Shown here: one piece after another, positions 7-15,681 of the stretch
Numbering within the stretch: the stretch's first letter is position 1
Layout of the letters: every line of letters begins with the position of its first letter
Origin: Nitrospira sp.
Lineage (GTDB): Bacteria > Nitrospirota > Nitrospiria > Nitrospirales > Nitrospiraceae
DNA: 64,000 nt
Direction: 5' to 3'
NCBI GenBank assembly: GCA_029865225.1
Contig: JAOUHJ010000002.1
Coordinates: 62,001-126,000, forward strand
Translations under genes and position numbers: made by a program
Notes under the pieces: model-generated
Told to the model about the DNA's origin: nothing
The model's database searches: none
What the model saw: the letters and a program-made list of their open reading frames with translations, nothing else

Positions 7-990
7 GTGATCGACGTTCACAACATTACCAAGCGGTACGGCCATCATACGGCAATCGATCACGTCACCTTTTCGGTGGCCAAGGGAGAGGTGTTGGCAT
101 TTCTCGGTCCCAATGGGGCAGGCAAGACGACCACGATGCGGATCTTGACGTGCTTTATGCCGGCGACTGAAGGCCACGCGCGTGTCGCGGGATTTGATTG
201 CACGGATCAGCCACTGGAAGTAAAGCGGCAGATCGGCTATCTGCCGGAGACACCGCCCGTCTATCAGGAGCTCACCGTCACTGAATATCTAACCTTCGTC
301 GGCCGTCTCCGTGGCATGACGGGGCAGAACCTCACGGCAGGGCTCGACCAAGCCATCGGCAAGCTTGAGCTGGGCTCAGTGCGTCATCGGCTGATCGGAA
401 ACCTCTCGCGCGGATACCGCCAGCGCGTGGGGCTGGCGCAGGCGTTGCTCCATGATCCCCCAGTCCTGATCCTCGACGAACCGACGGTCGGGCTCGACCC
501 AAAGCAGATCATCGAGATCCGGGAGCTCATCAAGAGCCTGGCCGGTTCCCATTCCGTGATCCTCAGCACGCACATTCTCCCGGAGGCGACCGCAGTCTGC
601 CAGCGAGTCGTCATTATCAACAAGGGGCGCATCGTCGCAGAGGACACCCCCGAACAATTGTCGGCCCGATTACGTCAATCAGAGAAGGTTTCCATCACGC
701 TCAAGACCGTCCCCCCGGACTGCGACATGAAACTTCGCGCGATCCCAGGCATCCTCAATGTGCTGCCGGGACAGGCAGGAGGGAGCTTCCTCCTCGAATG
801 TGAGCTAGGCCGTGATCTGCGGGATGAGATCGCGCGTCTGGTGGTCTCATCCAACTGGGGCTTGCTCGAACTCCGCACCATATCCATGACATTGGAAGAC
901 GTCTTCCTCCAACTCACACGCCACGAGGATCACCTCGCAGAGCCGACAGAGGCCATGGTCGGTGCCTCCGCCGAACGGACGGACGCGTAG
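7..990 (+). CDS. ABC transporter ATP-binding protein (GldA-like)
   Basis: ATPase subunit of an ABC-2 type exporter, acting at the inner face of the cytoplasmic membrane to power the permease encoded next. Walker A (GPNGAGKTT) lies near residues 34-42, the ABC signature (LSRGYRQRVG) near 134 and Walker B (LILDEPTVGLDP) just after it, followed by the switch histidine region (LSTHIL). The last ~90 residues form the extra C-terminal domain common in CcmA/GldA-type ATPases. The start is a GTG six bases from the window edge, so the ribosome site cannot be checked and a longer N-terminus is possible. It lies 8 bp before the permease and heads a four-gene operon. In Bacteroidetes GldAFG supports gliding. 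Here only a generic export or envelope role can be inferred. Confidence 0.9.
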   Translation: MIDVHNITKRYGHHTAIDHVTFSVAKGEVLAFLGPNGAGKTTTMRILTCFMPATEGHARVAGFDCTDQPLEVKRQIGYLPETPPVYQELTVTEYLTFVGRLRGMTGQNLTAGLDQAIGKLELGSVRHRLIGNLSRGYRQRVGLAQALLHDPPVLILDEPTVGLDPKQIIEIRELIKSLAGSHSVILSTHILPEATAVCQRVVIINKGRIVAEDTPEQLSARLRQSEKVSITLKTVPPDCDMKLRAIPGILNVLPGQAGGSFLLECELGRDLRDEIARLVVSSNWGLLELRTISMTLEDVFLQLTRHEDHLAEPTEAMVGASAERTDA

Positions 991-998
991 GTGGATCA

Positions 999-1769
999 AT
1001 GACCCCTGTCCAAGCCGTCATCGCCAAAGAACTCCGCGGGTACTTCGTCTCACCCATCGTGTATGTCGTGGGAGCGGTCTTTCTGCTCATCTTTGGACTC
1101 CTCTCGTATCTCTATGTCGGATTTGCCGGGGCACAAGCCATTCAGCTGATGCAAATGCAGGGAGGAGTGGCCCAAATCAACCTGAACGACTTGGTCTTCC
1201 GAAACCTCTTCGCCAGCGTACGAATCGTGCTGCTGATCATTTTGCCGATCCTGACCATGCGCCTCTTCGCAGAAGAACGAAAATTACGAACCTTTGAGTT
1301 CCTGCTCACATCCCCCATCAGAATCACCGACATCATCATCGGCAAATTCGTGAGTGTTCTGTTGATCTATCTCGGGCTCTTGGGATTCACGGTCCTGGTC
1401 CCGACCGTCTTGATGCTGTTCAGCGATTTTGATTGGAACCCAATCTGGACTGGGTACCTGGGAATGGTGCTGTTGGGAGCCTTGTTCCTCTCCGTGGGGG
1501 TCTTTGCCTCGGCGCTGACGGAAAACCAAATCGTCGCCGCCTTTGTCAGCTTCGGCATGTTGTTGACGATCTGGTTGATCGCCGGTTTGGGCAGTCTGTT
1601 CGGTGATACCACCGCCGGCCATATTATTTCATATGTCTCCTACATGGAGCACTATGATCACCTCGTCCGCGGGTTGATCGACACGAGCGACCTCGTGTAC
1701 TTCGGAAGCGGACTCGTGCTCATGCTGTTTCTCACACATCGCGTTGTGGAATCGACTCGCTGGAAATGA
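999..1769 (+). CDS. ABC-2 type permease (GldF-like)
   Basis: Membrane subunit of the exporter whose ATPase is encoded just upstream. The 256 residues contain about six hydrophobic segments, beginning near residue 15 (SPIVYVVGAVFLLIFGLLSY). The conserved cytosolic stretch LRTFEFLLTSPIRITDIIIGK is the coupling region typical of ABC-2 permeases of the Gld/NosY kind. Its last four bases (ATGA) overlap the start of the next gene, showing translational coupling. The substrate cannot be told from the sequence. Confidence 0.88.
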   Translation: MTPVQAVIAKELRGYFVSPIVYVVGAVFLLIFGLLSYLYVGFAGAQAIQLMQMQGGVAQINLNDLVFRNLFASVRIVLLIILPILTMRLFAEERKLRTFEFLLTSPIRITDIIIGKFVSVLLIYLGLLGFTVLVPTVLMLFSDFDWNPIWTGYLGMVLLGALFLSVGVFASALTENQIVAAFVSFGMLLTIWLIAGLGSLFGDTTAGHIISYVSYMEHYDHLVRGLIDTSDLVYFGSGLVLMLFLTHRVVESTRWK

Positions 1770-3289
1770 ATCTACGATCCATTCCTCTCGGTCTCATCGG
1801 AATCCTCCTCGGAGTCGGCGGCATGATCGCCTACAGCCTTCGACCAGACTGGCTGTGGGCCGTCACGATTGCGGAGGGGGCGGCGCTCCTATCCTTGGTC
1901 CTGTTCTTCGTCTTGCATTTCGAAACCGTGAAAGCGTTCTCCGGCCGGCGCTCCACGAAGATGGGGCTGAACAGCGCCCTGATGATCCTGCTGTTTTCAG
2001 GCATTCTGGTCATTGTGAACTTCCTCGCGTCACGCCACTCCGTACGATGGGATCTTTCAGAAAATCAGAATTTCACACTCGCACCACAAACCCATCGCGT
2101 CCTCAGAACGCTGCCGCGCGAGGTCAAAATCACCGTGTTTACTCGGGAAAAAGACCCCGGTTACCAAGCATTTAAGGAACGGCTGGAGAGTTATCGGCAA
2201 GCTTCTACCAAACTCAGTGTGGAGTTCATCGATCCCGAGAAAGAGCCTAAGATGGCCCAGAACTATGGGATCTTCCGGACCGACACGGCTATTTTCGAGA
2301 GCGACGGACAGACCATCCGTGTTACCTCACCGTCCGAGGTCGAGTTGACTGGTGCGTTGATTCGTATCTCCAAGGATTCCAAAAAGCGCATCGTCTTTGT
2401 CGAGGGCCATAGTGAACTAAGCGTCGAGGATAAGGAACGGAACGGCCTGTCGATCGCCAAAGAGGCCCTCATTCGACAAGGGTATGACGTCGGCACCGTC
2501 TCGCTCCTCAAGGAGTCAGCCGTGCCGGACAACACGTCGGTGCTGGTCCTGGCCGGACCACGCCGTTCCGTTTTGAAGGACGAGCAGGACCGTATTCGAG
2601 CGTACGTCGAGAAGGGTGGCCACCTGTTGGTGTTGGCCGATCCCGATACCCAGACCGGCTTGGAATCATTACTCGCCCATTGGGGTCTTGGTCTGGGCCC
2701 CGGTGTATTGGTGGACCTGCAAGATCGATTGGCCCAAGGAGACCTCACCGCGTTGTTAGTCAGAACGTTTACTGAGCATGAGATCACACAGGACCTCACG
2801 TCCGCCGTACTGTTTCCGCTCTCACGGCATGTGACCTTCGACGAGGAAGTCGGAAAGGACTGGGACTTTGTGCCCCTCGCCAGAACCTCGCCGAACAGTT
2901 GGGCTGAAACGAACATGCAAGGCCGGGTCGTGAGCCTCAGCGAAAAGGAAGATGTGAAAGGGCCGCTCCCCATGGCCGCTGCATTGGCTCCCAAGCAGGC
3001 ACCAAAAGAAGGCGAACCTCGCCCAGCCATCGCCGTCATCGGCAACTCAACCTTCGTGTCCAATGCCTTCTTTAACTTTCCCGGCAACAGCGACTTCTTT
3101 CTCCATACCATGGGGTGGCTGGCCGAGGAACGAGATTTGATCTCCATCGCCCCTAGGGAGCCGGCGTTGCATCCGTTCACGCCCAACCCCACCCAGGAGC
3201 GGACACTGATCTATATTCAGGTCGTCTTCCTTCCTCTCCTGACGTTGCTCACCGGCATCATCGTATGGAGAAAGCGCAGACGCCTTTAG
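1766..3289 (+). CDS. GldG-like auxiliary ABC transport protein
   Basis: A 507-residue membrane protein with two or three N-terminal transmembrane segments, a large non-cytoplasmic domain and one C-terminal membrane segment ending in a basic tail (WRKRRRL). The stretch after the third helix (RWDLSENQNFTLAPQT) is the hallmark of GldG-type proteins (ABC-type uncharacterised transport system domain). It is followed by a domain resembling a degenerate glutamine-amidotransferase or Rossmann fold (VFVEGHSELS, LVLAGPRR). It overlaps the permease gene by 4 bp and is followed after 3 bp by a DUF4340 gene, the usual partner. The order ATPase-permease-GldG-DUF4340 is well known. The cargo or function outside gliding bacteria is not. 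Confidence 0.85.
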   Translation: MNLRSIPLGLIGILLGVGGMIAYSLRPDWLWAVTIAEGAALLSLVLFFVLHFETVKAFSGRRSTKMGLNSALMILLFSGILVIVNFLASRHSVRWDLSENQNFTLAPQTHRVLRTLPREVKITVFTREKDPGYQAFKERLESYRQASTKLSVEFIDPEKEPKMAQNYGIFRTDTAIFESDGQTIRVTSPSEVELTGALIRISKDSKKRIVFVEGHSELSVEDKERNGLSIAKEALIRQGYDVGTVSLLKESAVPDNTSVLVLAGPRRSVLKDEQDRIRAYVEKGGHLLVLADPDTQTGLESLLAHWGLGLGPGVLVDLQDRLAQGDLTALLVRTFTEHEITQDLTSAVLFPLSRHVTFDEEVGKDWDFVPLARTSPNSWAETNMQGRVVSLSEKEDVKGPLPMAAALAPKQAPKEGEPRPAIAVIGNSTFVSNAFFNFPGNSDFFLHTMGWLAEERDLISIAPREPALHPFTPNPTQERTLIYIQVVFLPLLTLLTGIIVWRKRRRL

Positions 3290-3292
3290 CCT

Positions 3293-4675
3293 ATGTCACG
3301 CTATCAGTCGACACTCCTGATGCTGGTGATTCTCGCTGGTCTGGGCGGCTATCTCTACCTGGTGGAATTTCCGGCCAAGCAGCAGGAAGAGAAACAGGAA
3401 ATTGAACAGAAGCAACTTCTTCCTTTTCCGGAAACCGCTATTACCGAACTCTCGATCACGACTGCCCAGGGACTGATCAATTTCAAGCAGGGCACCCCAG
3501 GAAAATGGTCGATCATAGCCCCGCTTCAAACAGACGCTGATACCCGCGAAGTACAGGCGCTTATTCGAGCACTGGTGACAGGAACCGTCACCAGAACTCT
3601 CGACAAACATTCCTCTACCTTGGCAGCATTCGGGCTCGAAGAGCCTGTGACCACCCTGACCATCAGAGCAGGAGGGCAGCAGGAGACCATTTCGATCGGC
3701 GACAGCGGTCCCCTCTCCAACACATTGTACGTTCTTCGGGCGTCAGACCAGCGTGTGTTATTGACGACCCTCGCACCGAAAGATTTCATCAACAAATCGT
3801 TGATGACATTTCGCCGGAAGGAGCTGTTGCGATTCGTGCAAAACAATGTCGAGCGAGTCCGCCTGACATACCCGACAACTGAAATTGTGATCGCCAACGT
3901 GGCAAAGGACCAGCCCAGGCCATCCTGGAAGATCACCTACCCTGTCGAAGCCGAAGCCGATCAGAATGAAGTCCGGTCATTGATGTTTCGGTTGGAGGAT
4001 CTGAAAGCACTCGGCATCATCGACCCCGGCCCTGAACGAGACACAGTCGCCACGACCCTCACGACGCAGAAAGTGAAGATCACCTTGTACAGCGCGGGTG
4101 GAGAGCAGTCCGTCCGACTCTATCAACCAGACCCGCAAAGCGGTGAGGCGATCGCGCAAACCACATCGGAGGGGCCGCTCTATCGCATTAACCCTGTTCT
4201 GATCAAGGACCTAACGAGAGACCTTTTCAATCTTCAGGATAAGCGACTCCTTGGACTCGATTCTACGGACGTAGCGATGTTGTCGGTGAAGACGCGAGAC
4301 CAGCAGTACGTACTGATCCATCAAAACGGTGAGTGGGTGCTCGAAGACCAACCCATGATGAAGGTCACCCAGGAAGCTGCCGATCTGTTCGTCAGCCGTG
4401 TGGCGAACCTTCCGGCTGAAGAACGTGTCCTAAAACAATCCTCCCCTCTGGCCCCCTATGGGCTTTTGGTGCCAAGTGCTGAATTCGTTGCTACCGGAAA
4501 AGACGGCAAGACGGTTGGGAAACTGACCCTCGGCAACCGGGCGAGCGATCTCCTCTATGCGACCGGCCAACGGCTCCATGGGGTGTTTCAAGTGCGTCCG
4601 GACCTTCTCACTCAGATCCCCTCCAGAACCGAACTCCTTACTCAATCGAAGGACGGTCCAGAAGCCAAACGCTGA
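3293..4675 (+). CDS. DUF4340 domain-containing protein
   Basis: Last gene of the Gld-type operon, starting 3 bp after the GldG-like gene. The protein has one N-terminal membrane anchor (LLMLVILAGLGGYLYLVEFP) and a long soluble part, probably periplasmic. That part contains repeated segments of the type 'I.L..G.W.I..P...AD...V..L...L' (for example near residues 65-95 and 205-235), which are the DUF4340 repeats. A third related segment begins near residue 345. DUF4340 proteins regularly follow GldG-like genes. A role as an accessory envelope component is inferred from position only. Confidence 0.82.
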   Translation: MSRYQSTLLMLVILAGLGGYLYLVEFPAKQQEEKQEIEQKQLLPFPETAITELSITTAQGLINFKQGTPGKWSIIAPLQTDADTREVQALIRALVTGTVTRTLDKHSSTLAAFGLEEPVTTLTIRAGGQQETISIGDSGPLSNTLYVLRASDQRVLLTTLAPKDFINKSLMTFRRKELLRFVQNNVERVRLTYPTTEIVIANVAKDQPRPSWKITYPVEAEADQNEVRSLMFRLEDLKALGIIDPGPERDTVATTLTTQKVKITLYSAGGEQSVRLYQPDPQSGEAIAQTTSEGPLYRINPVLIKDLTRDLFNLQDKRLLGLDSTDVAMLSVKTRDQQYVLIHQNGEWVLEDQPMMKVTQEAADLFVSRVANLPAEERVLKQSSPLAPYGLLVPSAEFVATGKDGKTVGKLTLGNRASDLLYATGQRLHGVFQVRPDLLTQIPSRTELLTQSKDGPEAKR

Positions 4676-4905
4676 CCCGCTCACTGCGGAAGCTCACCGT
4701 TCTGGTGTCATTGACCGTTCGATCCGTTCGAGAATCGCTCCCATCTTCGCAGCAGTCACACCTTCAACCCCAGCAAACCCTTACCTATGTAGGGCTAGAC
4801 CGATTTCAGACCTGCCCGTAGGATCCAGCTCTACCGTGTGAGTTCATTGAGGGGTGGATCCCCGGATCCCTCAACTAAACAAGAACCAAAAACAGGCGGC
4901 ACCAT

Positions 4906-6852
4906 ATGAAACACATCCTTACAGCCGTAGCCCAAGCTCATCTCGCAACCGTCCTTCTTGCTGCCATCGGTTTTGGAACGTACGGCTGTGCGGACACAGC
5001 GTCGGTCAACCCAGTAGTAGAGCTTGCCAGCCTGACCATAACCCCTGGAACACTTCAACCGACGTTTACTAGTTCAACTACACAGTACAGCGTCGACCTG
5101 ACCAGCGACATCGCAAGCGTCACCCTAAGCGCCCAACCTGCCACGGCTGGCGACAGCGTGACCATCAACGGTGTGACGACGACAAGCCGTGTCATTATCC
5201 TAGGCGCAGCAGGATCGACCACTTCCGTGAATATCGTTGTTTCCGAATCAGGCAGCAATTCGAGGACCTACACCGTCCTCATCACCCGAGCAGGCCCGAA
5301 CGGAAACAATTCGCTACAAAGTCTAAACGTTTCACCCGGAACACTGACCCCCCCATTCGATCCGAACACGCTCCCCTATACAGTTGATGTCGCCAACAAC
5401 GTCGGAAGTGTCGAAGTAACTCCTACCCTCCAGGATACGAACGCAACAATGACAGTCAACGGGCAGAACGCTACCTCTGGCGCTCCCGTTACCGTTGACC
5501 TCACTCCCCCTGGCACACGCACAACTATCGAGATCATCGTGACGGCCCAGGACGGAAATCAGAAGCCCTACCTTGTTACCGTAAGCCGTGGCATATCAAG
5601 CAACGCTAACTTGCAGGACTTGACCATAACACCGGGAACCCTAAACCCGGCTTTCAACGCCGGTACAGCGGGATACTCGGTTAACGTCGCGAGTACCGTG
5701 GCCAGCGTCGTGGTAACACCTACTCTGCAAGATACGGCAGCCACAATGACTGTCAACGGGACTCCTACTACCTCAGGGCAGGCCCGATCAATTACGCTGC
5801 TCGGACCCGGCTTGAATACCTTTATCAATGTGAGGGTGACCGCGGAAAACGGAAGTCAGAACAATTACGTCGTCGTGGTGACTAGAGCAGCATTGGGCGA
5901 CAACAATCTGTCGGCCTTGACGGTCAAACTCAATGCATCGAGTCCCAACCTCATTAGTTTTAGTCCGAATACCACGAACTACACGGTGAACGTGGCGACC
6001 ACCGTGGACAGCTTGGACGTCTCTGCTACCAAGGCTTTTCCAAATGCTGTGATGACCGGAGATGTAACGGCTGGGGCAGGGAACCCAACAGGTAACGCGA
6101 CCATTTTTCTCAACGGGCCCGGCACATCCACAGACATCACGATCAGCGTAACCGCTCCCAACGGAGGAACGCCCAAGACCTACACCGTCACCGTCAACCG
6201 GCCACTTTCTGGTAATAACAACCTTTCGGCTTTGACGGTAGCCTTGAGTGCGTCCGACCCCAACCTCATTAATAATTTTGATCCAAGCACACTGAGCTAT
6301 ACGGTGGATGTGGCCTCCGACATCTTCAGCGTCACAGTGATCGCGACGCTGCAGGATACGAACGCCACTATGGAGGTGAATGGTCAGGGAACCAGCTCCG
6401 GCCAGGCACGTGAGATTACGCCGTTGCAACCACCCGGATCACCCACAGCCATCACCATTCGGGTGACACCTCCGAACGGCATCTTCAAAGACTACATCGT
6501 TACCGTCAACCGAGCGCCTCTTGCAGGGAATAACAACCTTTCGGCTTTGACGGTAGCCTTGAGTGCGTCCGACCCCAACCTCATTAATAATTTTGATCCA
6601 AGCACGCTGAGCTATACGGTGAATGTAGACTCCGGCATCTTCAGCGTCACAGTGATCGCGACGCTGCAGGATACGAACGCCACTATGGAGGTGAATGGTC
6701 AGGGAACCAGCTCCGGCCAGGCACGTGAGATTACGCCGTTGCAACCACCCGGATCACCCACAGCCATCACCATTCGGGTGACACCTCCGAACGGCATCTT
6801 CAAAGACTACATCGTTACCGTCAACCGAGCACCAGCATCCCCTGTCCCGTAG
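4906..6852 (+). CDS. Cadherin-like beta-sandwich repeat protein (paralogue 1, six modules)
   Basis: A probable exported surface or periplasmic protein. The N-terminus is a signal peptide ending in GTYGCADT. A cysteine follows the hydrophobic core, but the lipobox is imperfect (TYGC), so lipidation is only possible. The rest is about six cadherin-like beta-sandwich modules, each opening with a line such as LASLTITPGTL or NNLSALTV and closing with a YTVTVNR-like strand. Modules 5 and 6 are almost identical at DNA level (see the repeat entry). It is the first of four tandem paralogues and ends about 150 bp before the insertion sequence. No catalytic motif is seen, and a structural or adhesive role is inferred from the fold. 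Confidence 0.8.
   Translation: MKHILTAVAQAHLATVLLAAIGFGTYGCADTASVNPVVELASLTITPGTLQPTFTSSTTQYSVDLTSDIASVTLSAQPATAGDSVTINGVTTTSRVIILGAAGSTTSVNIVVSESGSNSRTYTVLITRAGPNGNNSLQSLNVSPGTLTPPFDPNTLPYTVDVANNVGSVEVTPTLQDTNATMTVNGQNATSGAPVTVDLTPPGTRTTIEIIVTAQDGNQKPYLVTVSRGISSNANLQDLTITPGTLNPAFNAGTAGYSVNVASTVASVVVTPTLQDTAATMTVNGTPTTSGQARSITLLGPGLNTFINVRVTAENGSQNNYVVVVTRAALGDNNLSALTVKLNASSPNLISFSPNTTNYTVNVATTVDSLDVSATKAFPNAVMTGDVTAGAGNPTGNATIFLNGPGTSTDITISVTAPNGGTPKTYTVTVNRPLSGNNNLSALTVALSASDPNLINNFDPSTLSYTVDVASDIFSVTVIATLQDTNATMEVNGQGTSSGQAREITPLQPPGSPTAITIRVTPPNGIFKDYIVTVNRAPLAGNNNLSALTVALSASDPNLINNFDPSTLSYTVNVDSGIFSVTVIATLQDTNATMEVNGQGTSSGQAREITPLQPPGSPTAITIRVTPPNGIFKDYIVTVNRAPASPVP
6214..6830 (+). repeat. 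Recent in-frame duplication of one beta-sandwich module
   Basis: Two 302 bp copies, 6214-6515 and 6529-6830, offset by 315 bp (105 codons), differ at about five positions clustered near the middle of the unit. Both open with aataacaacctttcggc and end with gtcaaccgagc. The offset is a whole number of codons, so the reading frame is kept and the protein gains one module. The close match points to a recent duplication or to ongoing gene conversion. Confidence 0.95.
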
Positions 6853-6999
6853 GCGAACACGAATCGTTCTGATCCGGCACACTCCTGTTTCCTCCGTTCT
6901 GCAACTACCACTGGGGATTTGAACAGATCCCCGGTAGGAGCCCCGCTCAACAGACACCGCAGACACCGCCATATCATCCGTATTCCATTACCCCTTATG

Positions 7000-7015
7000 G
7001 GACTGTTGAATAAAG
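7000..7015 (+). repeat. Left terminal inverted repeat of the IS
   Basis: ggactgttgaataaag, directly preceded by CCTTATG at 6993-6999, which recurs directly after the right repeat. Confidence 0.8.
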
Positions 7016-7091
7016 GGGGCGTTGCTTAAATTTTTGCTATACTACGCCTCGTCCTTGGTTCGTCCCCTCCCTCTTCGCACTGGAGCCGTGT

Positions 7092-8045
7092 ATGTCTCAA
7101 ATGGAACTGGTTGATCTCGACAGTCTGGTCTCATCCACGCACCCGTACCGGCGGTTTCACGCCTATCTGCCGGATGCCACCGAAGCCTTGGCCGACGTGA
7201 GACCCCTCAAAGGGGCCGATGGGTATGGCGTGGAGCGGCTCTTTCGCTGTCTGCTTGTGCACTTTATGGAAGACCTCTCGGATCGGGAGCTGGAGCGCTA
7301 TCTGGAAGAAAATCTGGCGGCCAAATGGCTGTGTGGATTCACCTTGTCGGAACCCACGCCTAACTACAGCCTCTTTACCCGAGTCCGCGCCCGTATTGGG
7401 CCCACACGGCTCCCCCAATTGTTTGCCGTTATGCGGCAGCTGCTCAATACCGCTGGGTTGATGAGTGAAGTGTTCACGTTTGTGGATGCCACGCATCTGA
7501 TTGCCAAAGCCACGTTGTGGGACGAGCGCGACAAGGCGCGGCAACAGAAGATTGAGCAGCTGAACAATGACGTGCTGCCGAAGGTGGCGGTGGACAAGCA
7601 AGCCCGAATTGGCTGTAAAGGGAAGAAGACATATTGGTACGGCTACAAAGAACACGTGAGTGTAGATATGCAATCCGGGTTGATCAACAAGGTGGCGACG
7701 ACTCCGGCCAATTTACCCGATGCCCAAGGCCTGCGGCATGTCTGCCCCGCCCAAGGGGCGATCTATGGGGATAAAGGCTATTGTACGGCTCCCGCTCGGC
7801 AGGCCGCTGCCCAGCGGAACTGTCATCTCGCCGCCATTCAACGCAAGAATATGAAATCCAAGAATCGGGATCGTGATCGGTGGTATACGCATCTGCGAGC
7901 GCCTTATGAACGTGTTTTTGCCCAGCGCCCGAAGCGGGTGCGCTACCGCGGTGTGGCGAAGAATCAATTCGCGGCCTTCTTGCAGGCGATGGTGTTTAAC
8001 CTCAAACGGTTGGTCGCCCTCGACGCGAACTTCGTGGCGGCCTAA
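7092..8045 (+). CDS. IS5-type DDE transposase
   Basis: Catalyses cut-and-paste movement of the surrounding element. The 317 residues include an N-terminal DUF772-like DNA-binding region (VERLFRCLLVHFMEDLSDRELERYLEENLAAKWLCG). The catalytic core follows: first Asp in FVDATHLIAKATLW, second Asp in IYGDKGYCTAPA, and the final acidic residue probably in the R..YERVFA segment. Length and motifs fit a full-length IS5-group enzyme. The ATG at 7092 follows a weak ggag site. No frameshift or internal stop is seen, so the gene may be active. About 160 bp of non-coding IS sequence with a strong hairpin lies between the stop codon and the right repeat. Confidence 0.9.
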   Translation: MSQMELVDLDSLVSSTHPYRRFHAYLPDATEALADVRPLKGADGYGVERLFRCLLVHFMEDLSDRELERYLEENLAAKWLCGFTLSEPTPNYSLFTRVRARIGPTRLPQLFAVMRQLLNTAGLMSEVFTFVDATHLIAKATLWDERDKARQQKIEQLNNDVLPKVAVDKQARIGCKGKKTYWYGYKEHVSVDMQSGLINKVATTPANLPDAQGLRHVCPAQGAIYGDKGYCTAPARQAAAQRNCHLAAIQRKNMKSKNRDRDRWYTHLRAPYERVFAQRPKRVRYRGVAKNQFAAFLQAMVFNLKRLVALDANFVAA

Positions 8046-8050
8046 GCACA

Positions 8051-8074
8051 AGGCAAGGTCCATGGACCTTGCCT
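8051..8074. terminator. 24 bp perfect palindrome after the transposase
   Basis: Perfect inverted repeat centred on ggtccatggacc, six bases after the transposase stop. A second small hairpin (aggagg-ccc-cctcct) follows at 8078-8092. There is no T tract, so it may be a stability hairpin or a shield against read-through rather than a classical intrinsic terminator. Confidence 0.55.
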
Positions 8075-8206
8075 CACAGGAGGCCCCCTCCTCCCAGATA
8101 CCCACTCAGGATCACCTTAGGGGGAGTGTCGAACGCGTAGGCGTGCCTCGCAGACTTTTGGCGAGATCGTTTGGGCCATCGTCGTCTTACCGGAAGCCGC
8201 ACAACG

Positions 8207-8222
8207 CTTTCTTCAACGGCCT
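8207..8222 (-). repeat. Right terminal inverted repeat of the IS
   Basis: Reads aggccgttgaagaaag on the minus strand and is directly followed on the plus strand by CCTTATG (8223-8229), the copy of the left flank. Confidence 0.8.
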
Positions 8223-8255
8223 CCTTATGCACCTGCCACAGGGCCGTTCGGACTC

Positions 8256-8285
8256 TTGACCTGAATTGCAAGTTTCGGCTATAGG
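8256..8285 (+). promoter_or_regulatory. Promoter of beta-sandwich paralogue 2
   Basis: TTGACC, 18 bp spacer, TATAGG. The sequence ttcggctatagg resembles the ttcgctatac core at the promoters of paralogues 3 and 4, and the distance to the start codon (about 138 bp) is also similar. It lies only 34 bp beyond the IS right end, so the insertion left it intact. Confidence 0.6.
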
Positions 8286-8423
8286 TGAATGCTCCGCTTA
8301 GTCCATAGGTGGTATGGATAGACGAATCCTTTGTCTGTCGTTGCTATTGAAACCCCAACTCCAGCCTTACAGAAACGGCCGGTTTTATCACCTCCAACAT
8401 ATGAGAAAGTGATTGGGTACGAC

Positions 8424-10511
8424 ATGAGACACTCTCAAATACTCCTTGGAAGATATCTGGCCGTTGTTCTTTTCACTGCTATTGGCTTAGGAACCTACGG
8501 CTGCGGTGACTCAGCCACCGTGAACCCAGAGGTAACCCTTGCGAGCCTAACGGTCTCACCTGGAACTCTCCAGCCGGGCTTTAGCGGTGGAACCACTCAG
8601 TACAGCGTCGAGCTTACCAGCAACACGACGACTGTGACCATCACTGCTCAAGCAGCAGTATCCGGGGACACCGTGAGCATTGATGGCGAGCCACGAAATA
8701 GCCACACAGTTGCCCTGGGGGACCCTGGATCGACGACTCCGGTGAGCATCGTCGTGTCAGAGTCAGGCACCAATTCAAGAACCTACACAGTCCTGCTCAA
8801 GAGAGCAGCCCTGGCTGGTAATAATTCGTTACAAGGCTTAACCGTTTCGCCCGGAACTCCGCCCATCGTATTCAACGAAAACACACTCACCTATACAGTC
8901 GATGTGGCCAGCACCGTCGAAAGCGTTGCGGTAACGCCGACCCTCCAGGATTCTGCCGCAACAATGACGGTGAAGAAGGGGAACGGTCAAGCCGAAGCCG
9001 CAACCTCTGGTCAGCCAAAAACAATCACCCTGAATCCCGCTGGCCAGAGCACTCTCATTACGATCGAAGTGACGGCCCTGAACCAAACTAAGAAAAGCTA
9101 CACGATCCTCGTGAATCGTGGCGGGTTATCGAGCATTAACAACTTGCAGAGCTTGACGGTGACACTGAATGCCTCGAGCCCCAACCTCATTACTAATTTT
9201 GACCCGAACACGCAGACCTACCCGGTGAACGTAGCAAGCACCGTAACAAGCGTCAGGGTGAGGCCGACACTGCCAGAGAATTCCAATGCGAGCATGAGCC
9301 TACGTGTGAACAGCGGGCAGCCCTCCAACATTAACTCCGGAGACACTCAAATTATTACCTTGGGCCAGCCAGACACGAACACCTTCATCAATATAATAGT
9401 CACCGCACAGAACGGGACTCCGAAGACCTATATCGTCGCTGTCGATAGGGCACCATCAAACGACAACAACCTGTCGGCCTTGAGCGTGAGAGTCGGTACT
9501 GTGGCACAAACCTTGTCTCCATCCCCCTTCAATCGGAATACCACGACCTATACGGTGGACGTTGCGTCCAACGTCACCAGCGTCACTGTCTCGGCAACCA
9601 AGGCTGATCAGAATGCTGCTATAGCTATTGCTAGCGCAACAATTCCCAATGGTAGCGTAACGGTCCCAGCTGGGACCGCAACGGGGGAAGCACCCGTTAC
9701 TCTAGGCGGGTTAGGATCAGAAACACCTGTGTCGGTCACGGTCACCCCTCAGATTGGAAACCCAAAGACATACAGCCTTACCATAACGCGGCTCTCGAGC
9801 AACAACAACCTGTCGGCCTTGAGTGTGACGGCAGGCACAGAGGCCCAAGCTTTGTCTCCAACCTTCGCTCCCAGTACTTCGGCCTATACGGTGAACGTGG
9901 CGACCGAAGTTACTGAGGTGACGGTCTCAGCCACCAAGGATGATCCAGATGCTGTCATGGGTATTGGTAGCGTCACGGCCGCAGCAGGAACAGCTTCAGG
10001 ACAAGCTATCATCACATTGAACGGAGCAGGGGAAGACACAACAGCGTCAATCACAGTAACTGCACAGAATGGAACGGTTAGAAATCCCCCTTATACAATC
10101 ACTGTGAAACGCCCCGCGCCCGCCGCCCCCCCCACCCCGGAGGCACCGGCGACCGCACCAGATCTGACTACGGAAAGTGATTCCGGCGTTCAGGGTATAC
10201 CTGAAAGCTTCACTGACAACCGCACTAACGTCCTAACGCCGAGCTTTACAGTGGCTCCCCCGGCAGCAGGGGAGACCGCGAGTCTCTATGTGGGTATAGG
10301 TACCAACCCAAGAGAAAAAGTCGCGACGAGCTTCGATCAGGCGACCAACACCCTGACAATGACGAATCCATTGCCTAGCGAAGGAGAGTACGATATTACC
10401 GTTACCAGCACGGTGACTAATTCAGCAGGCGTTGAATCCCTCCAGAGTCCGGCTTTGACCGTGACCATTGATAATGGTGCCCCAGGAGCCCCCACACCAC
10501 CCGGATCATAA
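8424..10511 (+). CDS. Cadherin-like beta-sandwich repeat protein with C-terminal Ig-like domain (paralogue 2)
   Basis: The ORF track opens at 8331, but the ATG at 8424 (MRHSQILLGRY) gives the signal peptide shared with the other paralogues, ending GLGTYGCGDS, so it is preferred. About five cadherin-like modules follow (LASLTVSPGTL, NNSLQGLTVSPG, NNLQSLTVTLN, NNLSALSVRVG, NNLSALSVTAG). After a proline-rich linker (PAAPPTPEAPATAP) comes a different C-terminal domain of about 120 residues (TTESDSGVQGIPESFTDN to LTVTIDNGAPGAP). It resembles the bacterial Ig-like domains of large adhesins, a feature the other three paralogues lack. Export and a surface or adhesive role are inferred. The YGC lipobox is imperfect. 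Confidence 0.78.
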   Translation: MRHSQILLGRYLAVVLFTAIGLGTYGCGDSATVNPEVTLASLTVSPGTLQPGFSGGTTQYSVELTSNTTTVTITAQAAVSGDTVSIDGEPRNSHTVALGDPGSTTPVSIVVSESGTNSRTYTVLLKRAALAGNNSLQGLTVSPGTPPIVFNENTLTYTVDVASTVESVAVTPTLQDSAATMTVKKGNGQAEAATSGQPKTITLNPAGQSTLITIEVTALNQTKKSYTILVNRGGLSSINNLQSLTVTLNASSPNLITNFDPNTQTYPVNVASTVTSVRVRPTLPENSNASMSLRVNSGQPSNINSGDTQIITLGQPDTNTFINIIVTAQNGTPKTYIVAVDRAPSNDNNLSALSVRVGTVAQTLSPSPFNRNTTTYTVDVASNVTSVTVSATKADQNAAIAIASATIPNGSVTVPAGTATGEAPVTLGGLGSETPVSVTVTPQIGNPKTYSLTITRLSSNNNLSALSVTAGTEAQALSPTFAPSTSAYTVNVATEVTEVTVSATKDDPDAVMGIGSVTAAAGTASGQAIITLNGAGEDTTASITVTAQNGTVRNPPYTITVKRPAPAAPPTPEAPATAPDLTTESDSGVQGIPESFTDNRTNVLTPSFTVAPPAAGETASLYVGIGTNPREKVATSFDQATNTLTMTNPLPSEGEYDITVTSTVTNSAGVESLQSPALTVTIDNGAPGAPTPPGS

Positions 10512-10684
10512 TACAGGAGCGCACAATACATAATGGTACTGCATCACACCGATCACGATCCTTCAACAGTCGTCTTGCATCGTGATCCAAGCGTTCAACT
10601 AGAACAGGCATACTGTGGTTCGGGTTTCTGGTGCCTCACAGACACCCTACCGTGCATAACCCGCACGTCTTCCAATCCGCTCTG
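10512..10684. other. Spacer between paralogues 2 and 3
   Basis: No credible gene. The whole intergenic gap is 10512-10841. Its second half holds the promoter and the roughly 130-base leader of paralogue 3. No clear intrinsic terminator for paralogue 2 was seen. Confidence 0.5.
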
Positions 10685-10713
10685 TTGACCCGACCGATCA
10701 GATTCGCTATACA
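10685..10713 (+). promoter_or_regulatory. Promoter of beta-sandwich paralogue 3
   Basis: TTGACC, 17 bp spacer, TATACA. The segment attcgctatac is shared with the paralogue 4 promoter. The start codon lies about 129 bp downstream, implying a long untranslated leader. Confidence 0.68.
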
Positions 10714-10841
10714 TTTGATTGCTTAGACGACGATCTCTGCCATGGCAGCTCGGTCTTGATCCCTCTCTGAACCGCGGGCTGCCAATCGAATTCATCAGAA
10801 CGAGCCTATCTCATCGTATAAAAGAAAGTGGGTGGCTCCAT

Positions 10842-12428
10842 ATGAAACGCTTCGTCACGATAGTTGGACCATGTCTTGTCATCAGTCTTCTCACTGTCGT
10901 TGGACTGAGCAACTATGGCTGTGGCGACTCTGCAACCGTAAACCCCGTAGTGGAACTCGCCAGCTTGTCCGTCGAACCTGGAACGCTCGAACCGGCCTTT
11001 AATGGTGGAACGACCCAGTACAAGGCGGATCTTGCCAACAACATCACGAGTGTCACCGTCACCGCTCAACCAGCCGTGGCCGGCGACAGCGTGACGATTA
11101 ACGGTGAGGCAACGGCAAGCCGCCCCATCACCCTCGGCGAGGCGGGATCGACGACTCCGGTGAATATCGTCGTGTCAGAATCGGGTACCAACTCGCGGAC
11201 CTATACCGTCCTCCTCACGAAAGCGAGCTTAACAGGTAACAACTCGTTACGGAGCTTATCGATTTCATCAGGCTCTCTCGACCCCGGATTTGACGCAAAT
11301 ACCCTGAGCTATCAAGCCTCTGTCGCCAGCAGCGTCAACAGCATGAGGGTGACACCAACCTTAGACGATCCTGCTGCGACGATGACGATAAACGGCCAAG
11401 CCGCCATCTCCGGGCAAACCCAAACCGTTCCTCTTCGCGATCCCGGTCTGAGCACCGTCATCAGCGTGGTTGTGACCGCGCAGAACGGCACTCAGAAACA
11501 GTACACCCTGGTCGTCTCTCGCGCAGCCCTCCGTGCGAACAACAACCTCCAGAGGTTAGGCGTGTCACCAGGATCCCTGTCCCCTTCATTCAGCGCAACG
11601 AGAACGAGCTATACCGTCAATGTCGGTGGAAGGGTTGAGAGTGTCACTGTGACTGCGGAGCCGGAGGATACAGCTGCAGGTCTGACTATTGCCGGGCAAA
11701 GCGTAGGTTCGCGTTCCATCTCTTTGCCGCCCGGTCCATCGAACACCGAAGTAGAGGTGGTTGTAACTGCACAGAATGGAACTTCCAAAACATACTTGCT
11801 CACTGTGAATCGCGAGGCGCTCTCGGCTGATAACAACTTGGAAACCCTGAGCGTATCCCCTGGCACCTTGGATCCTACCTTTTCCGCCGGCACCACGAAC
11901 TACACCGTAGAGGTAGCGTTTACGGTCGCTACCGTGGCTATCACTGCGACCAAATCTGATCCGAATGCCGTGATCTCCGGGGATGTTCCCAACGGAGGGC
12001 AGGCGAACATTGCGCTCGATGGACCAGGGACAAGCAAGACTGTCTCAATCATCGTGACTGCACCGAATGAAACCACTAAGACCTATAACATCACGGTGAC
12101 CCGATTGGCGCCTTCGACTGACAGTAACCTCAGGGAATTGACGGTCTCCGTTGGCACACTCAGTCCCGCCTTTTCTCCCGGCCAGCTGACCTATGATGCA
12201 AACGTTTCCGGAAACGATGAAACCGTCACCATTACCGCAACCAAGTCTGATCCGAACGCCATATTATCCTCGGCTAGCTCGGTCATCGCTGCAGCGGGAA
12301 CTCCGACTGGTCGCGTGACCGTCCTGCTTGGTCGGAATACGACCACGACAACCTCGATCCTCGTAACAGCTCAGGACGGGACGACCCGTAAGACCTATAC
12401 GATTAACGTTTTCCGACCAGAGCGCTAG
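10842..12428 (+). CDS. Cadherin-like beta-sandwich repeat protein (paralogue 3, five modules)
   Basis: The ATG at 10842 (MKRFVTIVGPCL) is chosen over the ORF-track start at 10719. It opens the signal peptide conserved in this family (GLSNYGCGDS), it lies downstream of the shared promoter, and aaagaaagtgggtgg upstream can serve as ribosome site. Five modules follow (LASLSVEPGTL, NNSLRSLSISSG, NNLQRLGVSPG, NNLETLSVSPG, SNLRELTVSVG). The C-terminal ~200 residues are very similar to paralogue 4, ending in the shared RKTYTI.VFRPER. This suggests duplication of a whole 3' portion. Probably exported, with a structural role inferred. Confidence 0.78.
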   Translation: MKRFVTIVGPCLVISLLTVVGLSNYGCGDSATVNPVVELASLSVEPGTLEPAFNGGTTQYKADLANNITSVTVTAQPAVAGDSVTINGEATASRPITLGEAGSTTPVNIVVSESGTNSRTYTVLLTKASLTGNNSLRSLSISSGSLDPGFDANTLSYQASVASSVNSMRVTPTLDDPAATMTINGQAAISGQTQTVPLRDPGLSTVISVVVTAQNGTQKQYTLVVSRAALRANNNLQRLGVSPGSLSPSFSATRTSYTVNVGGRVESVTVTAEPEDTAAGLTIAGQSVGSRSISLPPGPSNTEVEVVVTAQNGTSKTYLLTVNREALSADNNLETLSVSPGTLDPTFSAGTTNYTVEVAFTVATVAITATKSDPNAVISGDVPNGGQANIALDGPGTSKTVSIIVTAPNETTKTYNITVTRLAPSTDSNLRELTVSVGTLSPAFSPGQLTYDANVSGNDETVTITATKSDPNAILSSASSVIAAAGTPTGRVTVLLGRNTTTTTSILVTAQDGTTRKTYTINVFRPER

Positions 12429-12565
12429 TTCAGGATACCCAAACTCCGTATCTTGCAAGTTAACCGAATCACAAAATTCACCGCGCTCAGCTCCCTGTTC
12501 AGTCAAGAATGAACCCGGCGACAATATGCCTTCACCATGAGCGATGTTTTCTTTCCCTCGTGCCG
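12429..12565. other. Spacer between paralogues 3 and 4
   Basis: No gene recognised. The gap 12429-12729 contains the paralogue 4 promoter at 12566-12595 and a leader of about 135 bases. A weak hairpin (gatac...gtatc, 5 bp) lies just after the paralogue 3 stop. Confidence 0.45.
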
Positions 12566-12595
12566 TTGACCTTGCCTATTCAAATTCGCTATACG
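12566..12595 (+). promoter_or_regulatory. Promoter of beta-sandwich paralogue 4
   Basis: TTGACC, 18 bp spacer, TATACG, with attcgctatac identical to the paralogue 3 promoter. The start codon lies about 135 bp downstream. Confidence 0.68.
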
Positions 12596-12729
12596 TCTTA
12601 ATGACTATTTCATCACCAAGGACAATTTGATTCTTGAACCCTCTCGTAGTCTCGAGACCTACCGTTTGGGTTCACCAGAGCGGACTGATTCATCAATTGA
12701 TGAACTAGCAAGAAAGAGAACAGCCCTGC

Positions 12730-13746
12730 ATGAAACACGCGCTTACCATCGCACACCAATCCTTCGCTGCTCTTCTGCTTATGACAATCGGCTTAGGGGC
12801 CTATGGCTGTGCGGATACAGCCGCGATCATCGAGGAAGCACAACTCGCCAGCTTGACGGTCAGCCCAGGGGACCTCAATCCAGCTTTTTCGAGCAGTACC
12901 ACGAGATATGATCTCAAGGTGTCGTCCTCGGACGACAGCGTCACAATACGAGCCAATCCTCAAGATAGTGCCACGAAGATGACCATCAATGGCGTTGCGA
13001 CCAATGCGGAGGAAGCACGCTCCTTTCCGCTGCCGGAGCCACCATCGATTACACCCATCACAATCGTCTTGACGGCGCCGAGTGGAACTCAGAAAACCTA
13101 CCTCGTCTTTGTGGAGCGCCCTGTGCCACCGGCTCCACCGAGCAGCAATAACAACCTATCGAACTTAGAGGTGTCTGCGGGCAGGCTGGATCCTGCCTTT
13201 TCTGCCGGCACCACGCAGTACACCGTCGAGGTCGGGCCCGCCGTCACTGAAGTGACTGTCACTGCGACCAAGTCTGATCCAAATGCCGTAATCTCTGGCG
13301 ATATCCCTAACGAAGGACAGGCGACCATCTCACTGGGCGGACAAGGCACGAGCAAGGTCGTAAAGATCACCGTTACTGCACCGAATGGCGACTCCAAGAC
13401 CTACAGCATCACCGTGAAGCGATTGGCGCCTTCGACTGACAGCAACCTCTCGGCCTTGACGTTGTCCGCAGGCACATTGATTCCCTCCTTCTCCCCCGGT
13501 GAGCTGACCTATCTGGCAACCGTCTCCGCCAACGCCGAAACCGTCACCATTTCCGCGACCAAGTCTGATCCGAATGCCGTAATATCCTCGGCGGGGTCGG
13601 TGATTGCTAAAGCAGGGGATCCAACTGGTCGCGTGACCGTCTCGCTTGGGCGGAATGCTACAACGACAGTGTCGATTCTCGTGACCGCGCAGGACGGGAT
13701 AACCCGTAAGACATATACGATTAGCGTCTTCCGACCAGAGCGCTAG
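12730..13746 (+). CDS. Cadherin-like beta-sandwich repeat protein (paralogue 4, three modules)
   Basis: Shortest member of the array, 338 residues. A signal peptide ends in GLGAYGCADT (cysteine after an imperfect lipobox). Three modules follow (LASLTVSPGDL, NNLSNLEVSAG, SNLSALTLSAG). The last two match the last two of paralogue 3 closely, down to the C-terminal VFRPER. A proline-rich hinge (RPVPPAPPSSNN) separates modules 1 and 2. The N-terminus MKHALTIAHQ also matches paralogue 1 (MKHILTAVAQ), so this gene may be a mosaic of 1 and 3. No enzymatic motif is seen, and a surface or periplasmic structural role is inferred. Confidence 0.78.
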   Translation: MKHALTIAHQSFAALLLMTIGLGAYGCADTAAIIEEAQLASLTVSPGDLNPAFSSSTTRYDLKVSSSDDSVTIRANPQDSATKMTINGVATNAEEARSFPLPEPPSITPITIVLTAPSGTQKTYLVFVERPVPPAPPSSNNNLSNLEVSAGRLDPAFSAGTTQYTVEVGPAVTEVTVTATKSDPNAVISGDIPNEGQATISLGGQGTSKVVKITVTAPNGDSKTYSITVKRLAPSTDSNLSALTLSAGTLIPSFSPGELTYLATVSANAETVTISATKSDPNAVISSAGSVIAKAGDPTGRVTVSLGRNATTTVSILVTAQDGITRKTYTISVFRPER

Positions 13747-13907: not shown

Positions 13908-14579
13908 CTACCGTTTCGGATCCAATTCGATCAGTCCCTTGCGGATGGCAAGAATAGCCGCTTGTGTCCGATCGTAGACTTGCAGTTTGTGGAAGATGTT
14001 CCGGACGTGATTCTTCACGGTCTTTTCGCTGAGGTCGAGGCTATTCGCGATCTCTTTGTTGGTTTTCCCATCCGCGACCAGCCGTAACACGGTGATTTCC
14101 CGCTCGGTCAAATCATGTTCGGCCCACGCCGGCTTCTTCCCCTTCTTTTGGGCCATCAGCGAGAATTCGGCCAGGATCTTGCTGGCGACCGATGGATGAA
14201 TGAGCGATTCACCACGATAGATCGCGCGAATGGCCGCCACGATTTGAGACGATTCGGAATCTTTCAGCAAGTATCCCGTCGCCCCTGCTCGGACCAAGTC
14301 GAAGATGTATTGCTGTTCTTCATACATGGTCAATGCGACGATGCCGATATGCGGGAGCTCGCGTTTGATCTGTCGCGTCGCCTCAACACCGCCCATCCGT
14401 GGCATGCTCACATCCATCAGAATCACATCGGGAAGAAGCGTACTGGCCTTTTCAACGGCCTCGACTCCATCCTGAGCTTCACCGATGACATGGATGTCCT
14501 CTTTGGTCTTGAGAATGGCCGCCAGACCTTCTCGGACCACCCGATGGTCGTCGGCGATGAGGACTTTAATCTTCTCCAT
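13908..14579 (-). CDS. NarL/FixJ-family response regulator
   Basis: Output half of a two-component system whose kinase gene lies immediately upstream and overlaps it by 14 bp. The receiver domain (residues 1-120) has the acidic pair ADD at 10-11, phospho-acceptor Asp56 (LMDVSMPRMGG) and the conserved Lys in YLLKDS. The C-terminal LuxR-type helix-turn-helix (LTEREITVLRLVADGKTNKEIANSLDLSEKTVKNHV) binds DNA. Length 223 is standard. Targets cannot be read from the sequence. Confidence 0.93.
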   Translation of the reverse strand: MEKIKVLIADDHRVVREGLAAILKTKEDIHVIGEAQDGVEAVEKASTLLPDVILMDVSMPRMGGVEATRQIKRELPHIGIVALTMYEEQQYIFDLVRAGATGYLLKDSESSQIVAAIRAIYRGESLIHPSVASKILAEFSLMAQKKGKKPAWAEHDLTEREITVLRLVADGKTNKEIANSLDLSEKTVKNHVRNIFHKLQVYDRTQAAILAIRKGLIELDPKR

Positions 14580-15681
14580 TGTTTATCTCCTCCTTATTGC
14601 CCATTGGTACATCCACAACGATTTTGGTGCCCTTCCCTGGTTTGGACTCCACGCGACCTTCGCCACCAACCAGTCGTGTTCGCTCCAGAATCCCCTTGAT
14701 GCCAAAATGATCCCATTTTTCAGGGTCCCGGAGCACCGCCTCCATGTCAAATCCGACGCCATTGTCCGTAATCGTGACCCGTAGCCGATCTTCGCCGATG
14801 TCCAGTTTGATCGACACCCGATCGGCTTTGGCATGCTTCTCGACGTTGCTCAAGGCTTCCTGGATGATTCGGAAGAGAAAGATCTTGGTACGAGGGAACA
14901 GGATCTGCTCATCTCCCGTCACGGTAAATTTCGTGGCGATATGGGTCTGGGTCTGATACGAGGCGAAATAATTCCTGAGGCCGGGGATCAGATCCATCTT
15001 GTCATAGTGGAGTGGGCGCAGATTAAAGATCACCTGGCGGGCTTCCTGAATGGCGAGTTTCAATTGAGCCTTGCTCTCCTTGAGAGTGGCGAGACAGGCG
15101 CGAGGATTCTTCCGGATCAGCTGCTGGCACAGATCCAGCTTGAAATTCACCCCCGCCAAAATCTGCACGAATCCGTCGTGAATCTCGCAGGCGATTCTCG
15201 TCCGTTCGTCCGTGACGGCGGCGCCCGTTTCCTTCACATAGAGTCGGTAGAGCGACTGATATTTGTTCAGCGTCTTCTCGATCTCGGCCGTCGCGCGGAT
15301 GCGGGCTTCAATCAACTCCCACATGAACTTTGCACTGGCCCCGCCGATTGCGGTCACACCCATCCGATGGAAATCCTGAAGAAATTTCCAGACGTCCGGA
15401 TCCCCGGACACATCGATGATCAAATCCACATGTTCCATCGTGAGCAACTGCCGATAATCGTGGGTGATCGGAATCTTCAGTTGTCGGGCAAGGTCCAGCC
15501 CCGGGGCGTCCGGAAGCACCTCCGCCACCCCAACGATCTGGACAAGCGGGTCATTCGCAAAAATTTCCATTAATGCGGTGCCACCGCGACCGGCGCCTAT
15601 GATCGCCACACTCGTCGCCCCTGGAGACGGCGTGTCTCGTCGCCCACGCTTTGAGAGTGATGCGGTCATCAGGTGTAACAC
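14566..15681 (-). CDS. NarX-type histidine kinase with N-terminal Rossmann domain
   Basis: Sensor kinase paired with the overlapping response regulator gene. The C-terminal half is a HisKA_3 kinase: dimerisation helix with the phospho-acceptor His168 (ACEIHDGFVQ), then an ATPase domain with ALSNVEKHA, DNGVGFD and GKGTKIVVDV. The N-terminal ~125 residues are unusual. They read as a dinucleotide-binding fold, with VAIIGAGRGGTA (GxGxxG near residues 29-34), an acidic residue at the end of strand 2 (GVAEV), and VDLIIDVSGDP as in homoserine or inositol dehydrogenases. A linking coiled helix (EIEKTLNKYQSLYRLYVKETG) follows. No membrane segment is seen, so it is cytosolic. Sensing of NAD(P)(H) or a related ligand is inferred. 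Confidence 0.85.
   Translation of the reverse strand: MLHLMTASLSKRGRRDTPSPGATSVAIIGAGRGGTALMEIFANDPLVQIVGVAEVLPDAPGLDLARQLKIPITHDYRQLLTMEHVDLIIDVSGDPDVWKFLQDFHRMGVTAIGGASAKFMWELIEARIRATAEIEKTLNKYQSLYRLYVKETGAAVTDERTRIACEIHDGFVQILAGVNFKLDLCQQLIRKNPRACLATLKESKAQLKLAIQEARQVIFNLRPLHYDKMDLIPGLRNYFASYQTQTHIATKFTVTGDEQILFPRTKIFLFRIIQEALSNVEKHAKADRVSIKLDIGEDRLRVTITDNGVGFDMEAVLRDPEKWDHFGIKGILERTRLVGGEGRVESKPGKGTKIVVDVPMGNKEEINNGED

Follow-up and report, generated by a model that had tools for sequence, protein, structure and literature searches.

A tandem array of predicted surface-lipoprotein genes with shared, family-specific promoters in Nitrospira

Between an ABC-type operon and a two-component system, the 64,000-nucleotide stretch of Nitrospira DNA analysed here (the window) carries four tandem genes for predicted lipoproteins made of cadherin-like modules (Table 1). 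They are read, with a probability of about 70%, as an array of surface-lipoprotein genes in separate yet co-regulated transcription units, each with its own promoter of one of two designs, P1 (genes 2-4) or P2 (gene 1); judged by its sequence, this row of promoter-bearing genes looks built for joint switching. A sigma70-type RNA polymerase would use both promoters, and an activator, for which the neighbouring NarL-type response regulator is one candidate, would bind a near-palindrome in P2. The products would be exported by Sec, lipidated at the cysteine of a YGC motif, and presented at the outer membrane as rods with three to eight beta-sandwich modules, probably with a part in adhesion, aggregation or the structure of the cell surface. 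Nitrospira are difficult to culture, and their cell surface and gene regulation are little known; an array kept at one site throughout one subclade offers both a marker and a handle on aggregation or attachment, and P1 and P2, both defined by sequence, lend themselves to reporter assays and to a search for their regulator.

Table 1. Positions of the array genes, their putative control elements and the bordering genes in the window
Feature	Position	Strand	Details or basis
ABC-type operon, left border of array	7-4675	+	ATPase, permease, ABC_transp_aux/GldG-like, DUF4340
Near-palindrome upstream of gene 1 P2 -35, candidate activator site	4782-4793	+	TACCTATGTAGG; no control matches; sole copy in window
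Gene 1 P2 promoter	4796-4824	+	TAGACC (4796-4801), 17 bp, TAGGAT (4819-4824)
Gene 1 conserved 39-bp island	4808-4846	+	holds P2 -10
Gene 1, predicted lipoprotein	4906-6852	+	6 PF12733 modules; ORF and Pfam profile
DDE transposase gene between genes 1 and 2	7092-8045	+	PF05598/PF01609
Gene 2 P1-type promoter	8256-8283	+	TTGACC-N18-TATA
Gene 2 possible leader hairpin	8317-8339	+	GATAGACGAATCCTTTGTCTGTC; best-hairpin z -3.5
Gene 2, predicted lipoprotein	8424-10511	+	5 PF12733 modules and C-terminal stretch; ORF and Pfam profile
Gene 3 P1 promoter	10685-10711	+	TTGACC-N10-GATTCGCTATA
Gene 3 possible leader hairpin	10743-10784	+	GGCAGC..GCTGCC; z -2.3
Gene 3, predicted lipoprotein	10842-12428	+	5 PF12733 modules; ORF and Pfam profile
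Gene 4 P1-type promoter	12566-12593	+	TTGACC-N18-TATA (ATTCGCTATA)
Gene 4 conserved 39-bp island	12636-12674	+	inverted repeat GAACCC..GGGTTC; P2 -10 degenerate (TAGTCT)
Gene 4, predicted lipoprotein	12730-13746	+	3 PF12733 modules; ORF, Pfam profile and AlphaFold2 model
NarL-type response regulator, borders array	13908-14579	-	Response_reg and GerE
Histidine kinase, partner of response regulator	14566-15681	-	HisKA_3 and HATPase_c

The four genes encode 19 PF12733 cadherin-like modules (6 + 5 + 5 + 3), all 19 above the curated cut-off of 24.2 bits, which bears out the original prediction of about 19 such modules in four genes. The genes had also been called consecutive, which is right as to their tandem arrangement, but the transposase gene splits genes 1 and 2; it is present in a single copy in its own genome and is found in none of the relatives' arrays. 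The P1 promoter of gene 2 is intact downstream of this insertion. The paralogues of the array are 44-50% identical to gene 1, two modules of which are 97% identical in DNA. Gene 2 ends in a C-terminal stretch (10090-10511) that has no Pfam match and is missing in the other three proteins.

Each of the four proteins begins with MK or MR followed by a hydrophobic core and then YGC, as in a lipoprotein signal peptide, with Thr, Ala or Asn instead of the usual Leu at lipobox position -3. The YGC end, described earlier as shared and unusual, is present in all four proteins but is no oddity, since it resembles a lipobox cleavage site (Cys at +1, Gly at -1), and the genes are therefore marked as encoding predicted lipoproteins; across the family, signal peptides end in YGC in 77 of 139 genes and in SGC in 39. 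The AlphaFold2 model of gene 4 consists of three beta sandwiches (mean pLDDT 90.9, pTM 0.58). A sequence search of the PDB gave no match, and the matches of a fold search were all unspecific, to Ig/cadherin chains and to repeats of bacterial adhesins or S-layers, and scored low TM values over the whole chain. The signal peptides and the fold suggest surface display and adhesion, and by analogy surface rods for adhesion or aggregation are the most likely role. Many genes of the family have a AGAAAGTGA-like box about 20 nt before the ATG (exact in 31 of 135), which is probably a ribosome-binding site, though unusually uniform.

TTGACC, a spacer of 17 or 18 bp and TATA, as predicted before three of the genes, are found upstream of genes 2, 3 and 4, with the TATA ending 130-140 nt before the ATG. 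Genes 3 and 4 have the near-identical promoters that had been claimed for all three, but in gene 2 the likeness is confined to the hexamers and GCTATA. Throughout the 4.1-Mb genome the loose pattern TTGACC-N16-19-TATA has 21 matches versus 12 in a reversed control, so that single matches carry little weight; P1 is taken as real because three copies precede neighbouring paralogues and because the loose pattern recurs upstream of 66 of 135 family genes. Alignment of 44 genes on TTGACC reveals additional conservation of GAT at +16 to +18 and of G at +21; the T at +18 and the G at +21 are invariant in these genes, though outside the selection criteria. The refined pattern (TTGACC-N10/11-GATNNGYTATA, with the ATG about 90-150 nt downstream) has 61 exact matches in 175 family genomes, all of them within this genus, versus a single one in the reversed control; the ORF downstream of 59 of them encodes cadherin-like modules, and the other two are cut by a contig end. 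Among the window genes, gene 3 has the refined pattern and genes 2 and 4 fit the looser form. The check proposed earlier, whether related Nitrospira genomes conserve the TTGACC/ctata pair, thus came out positive, the refined matches belonging to this gene family only. Compared across paralogue classes, identity is 60% in the P1 spacer and 28% in the flanks.

P1 is missing from gene 1 and from most genes at the head of an array, which share CCCTTACCTATGTAGGGCTAGACC-N17-TAGTAT or close variants. The TTGACC at 4711, formerly paired with gene 1 as its promoter, is probably the wrong element: it is absent from an alignment of the sequences upstream of related first genes, which share the element at 4782-4824 instead. 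P2 is defined as the near-palindrome TACNNANGTAGG followed by TAGACC-N17-TAnnAT, and lies about 105 nt upstream of the ATG. Searched in full, it has 54 matches in the 175 family genomes and none in the control (exact matches only, looser P2-like sites in other genera being outside the count); 53 precede ORFs with cadherin-like modules, and one precedes a family signal peptide at a contig end. The -35 agrees with TAGACC at five or six of six positions in 50 of the 52 genes without P1, versus 2.8% of random positions. With two mismatches allowed, the genome that carries the window has two further P2 sites, below the control count. The centre of the near-palindrome lies about 43 bp before the predicted transcription start, and class II activators bind at about such a distance; by its placement the near-palindrome is a candidate activator site.

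Most genes have a 39-bp island (GAACCCTCTCGTAG..CTACCGTTTGGGTTCA) about 95-57 nt upstream of the ATG; it contains the -10 in P2 genes, and P1 genes have mostly lost this -10 and kept an inverted repeat. All 52 genes without P1 have an intact P2 -10 (TAnnAT), versus 4 of 40 with P1, a contrast whose significance is overstated because the hexamer was defined after alignment, only genes with the island were counted, and the genomes are related. As a rule, then, each gene has one promoter or the other, and both designs are conserved across paralogues that have diverged. The exact P1 and P2 patterns precede only this gene family in the 175 genomes (three matches are cut by contig ends), counts that across related genomes are not independent events; the shared cis elements are specific to the set and exceed chance, as in a regulon. 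Co-regulation by dedicated promoters is supported by these comparisons, because the promoter spans the subclade, is specific to the family, and is conserved between paralogue classes with diverged flanks. The original prediction of co-regulation is supported, and the functional leader that went with it is hinted at by weak folding and covariation signals in P1 genes. Gene 1 differs from genes 2-4 in promoter type, so all four need not respond alike.

The duplicated genes could have taken along an ordinary sigma70 promoter, which would give the same pattern without a dedicated regulator, the basal elements being kept with no special co-regulation. Such inheritance of housekeeping promoters is a serious contender, if short of an even chance: in P1 the -35 is close to consensus, the spacing is 17/18 bp and the G two bases before TATA is a usual extended -10 contact, and the interior of the array contains no regulator gene, but the conserved GAT (+16 to +18) and the near-palindrome fall outside the usual sigma70 contacts, and in another genus, g15, lipoproteins built of unrelated modules likewise have P2-like sites upstream (the sites are found there before an orphan PF12733 lipoprotein and before two lipoproteins that each hold eight He_PIG modules). 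A further reading puts the likeness of the promoters down to recent duplication or gene conversion, with copies still young or homogenised genome by genome. It is consistent with the paralogy of the genes and the nearly identical modules of gene 1, but is very improbable, being disfavoured by a footprint seen across paralogue classes: their flanks are no more alike than by chance, yet the promoter core is preserved; moreover, promoter variants track the place of the gene in the array across genomes and not the genome. Orphan PF12733 genes elsewhere are also preceded by P2-like sites, and P2 may be an older mark of modular surface lipoproteins. A wider and more speculative extension, doubtful as it stands, is a dedicated Nitrospiraceae regulon for modular surface lipoproteins, set by the activator-site promoter whatever the module type (PF12733 or He_PIG), which in one subclade, apparently coinciding with comammox clade A, would have expanded into a tandem array with two mutually exclusive promoter designs, one with a hairpin leader.

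A functional RNA leader is unlikely; in this reading a conserved hairpin in P1 transcripts, about 95-60 nt ahead of the ATG, would govern their stability or translation. The 39-nt island folds with a mean z of -1.76 in P1 genes versus -0.66 in genes without P1, and the best leader hairpin has a mean z of -0.60 in P1-only genes (-3.5, -2.3 and -1.6 in genes 2-4 of the window), but its difference between P1-only and P2-only genes has p = 0.06, and the complete leaders of window genes 1-4 show no gain in folding over shuffles. In an alignment of 21 P1-only sequences, 91% of cells pair, as matched by 12 of 500 shuffles, and one pair has double changes, but the covariation term is near zero and shuffle counts of such size can arise from relatedness alone. 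A hairpin common to all genes was rejected, as the conserved inverted repeat shows no covariation over 42 sequences, and so was a known RNA family, the leader matching no Rfam family at gathering score.

The array occupies a fixed place in about 30 genomes of the genus, with the gene order ABC ATPase, permease, GldG-like, DUF4340, three to six lipoprotein genes, NarL-type regulator and kinase (on the other strand), SHMT and ribosomal L9. In genomes G008 and G030 the array is missing, and only about 78 and 25 nt, respectively, separate the DUF4340 gene from the regulator. The regulator is found in 75 of 79 genomes of the genus, with or without the array, and was rejected as a dedicated regulator of the array because genomes without the array also have it. 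Locus L084 (genome G025) was rejected as an empty site, because the assembly has a gap there, filled with N, within the array. Runs of N occur at or near the array in L084, L129, L130, L133, L134 and L142; draft assemblies break on the repeats of the array, so absences and gene counts in drafts need care.

In a tree of the regulator, kinase, SHMT and L9, the carriers of the array form one subclade of Nitrospira (the label 'none' on L091 and L094 notwithstanding, their source genomes, G035 and G007, do carry the array). Named Nitrospira MAGs with the array at this locus include RBC069, RBC083, RBC093, RBC100, Ga0074138, UW-LDO-01, RSF1, RSF12 and CG24B; it is missing at the locus in Nitrospira moscoviensis, Ca. 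Nitrospira defluvii and CG24D. RBC069, RBC083, RBC093 and RBC100 are treated as comammox, mostly of clade A (PMC7305129), UW-LDO-01 is a comammox genome (PMC5596200), and the comammox MAG Ga0074138 is related to a clade A genome, CG24D being placed with nitrite oxidisers (PMC11064514). The named carriers thus include published comammox clade A genomes, and the named nitrite oxidisers lack the array; these names suggest a link between the array and comammox clade A.

The 19 modules of the window belong with PF12733 cadherin-like beta-sandwich proteins, but here they are encoded in a tandem lipoprotein gene array with private promoters. Full-text literature searches for Nitrospira with cadherin-like or surface lipoproteins found no description of such an array. 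Its promoters resemble sigma70 promoters with an extended -10, P1 in its TTGACC, spacing and G before TATA; P1 differs from them in dropping the last T of TATAAT and adding the conserved spacer GAT, and P2 in its weak -35 (TAGACC) with a near-palindrome ahead of it. The position of that near-palindrome beside a weak -35 recalls NarL/FixJ-type operators and class II promoters, and the neighbouring regulator, which has a GerE domain, is a candidate by position, symmetry and neighbourhood; it is a core gene untied to the array. Tandem surface-lipoprotein gene arrays with shared promoter sequences occur in other bacteria and likewise have tandem paralogues, similar upstream regions and variable repeat numbers, but the Nitrospira array has no sign of inversion, silent cassettes or switching, and nearly every gene has its own fixed promoter.

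Several further observations concern other loci. He_PIG lipoproteins with a P2-like promoter (L104:4660-7035 and L105:4581-6965) look as though the modules had been swapped behind a retained promoter and signal peptide. In other genera, arrays of PF12733 lipoprotein genes that seem independent (G131, locus L097; G084, locus L098) have the signal end ..GCIPSSD.. and no exact P1 or P2. Orphan PF12733 proteins at L036 and L066 start with a putative TIR domain (MSDIFISYSSEDKGRVQALARALERKGWSVWWD...).
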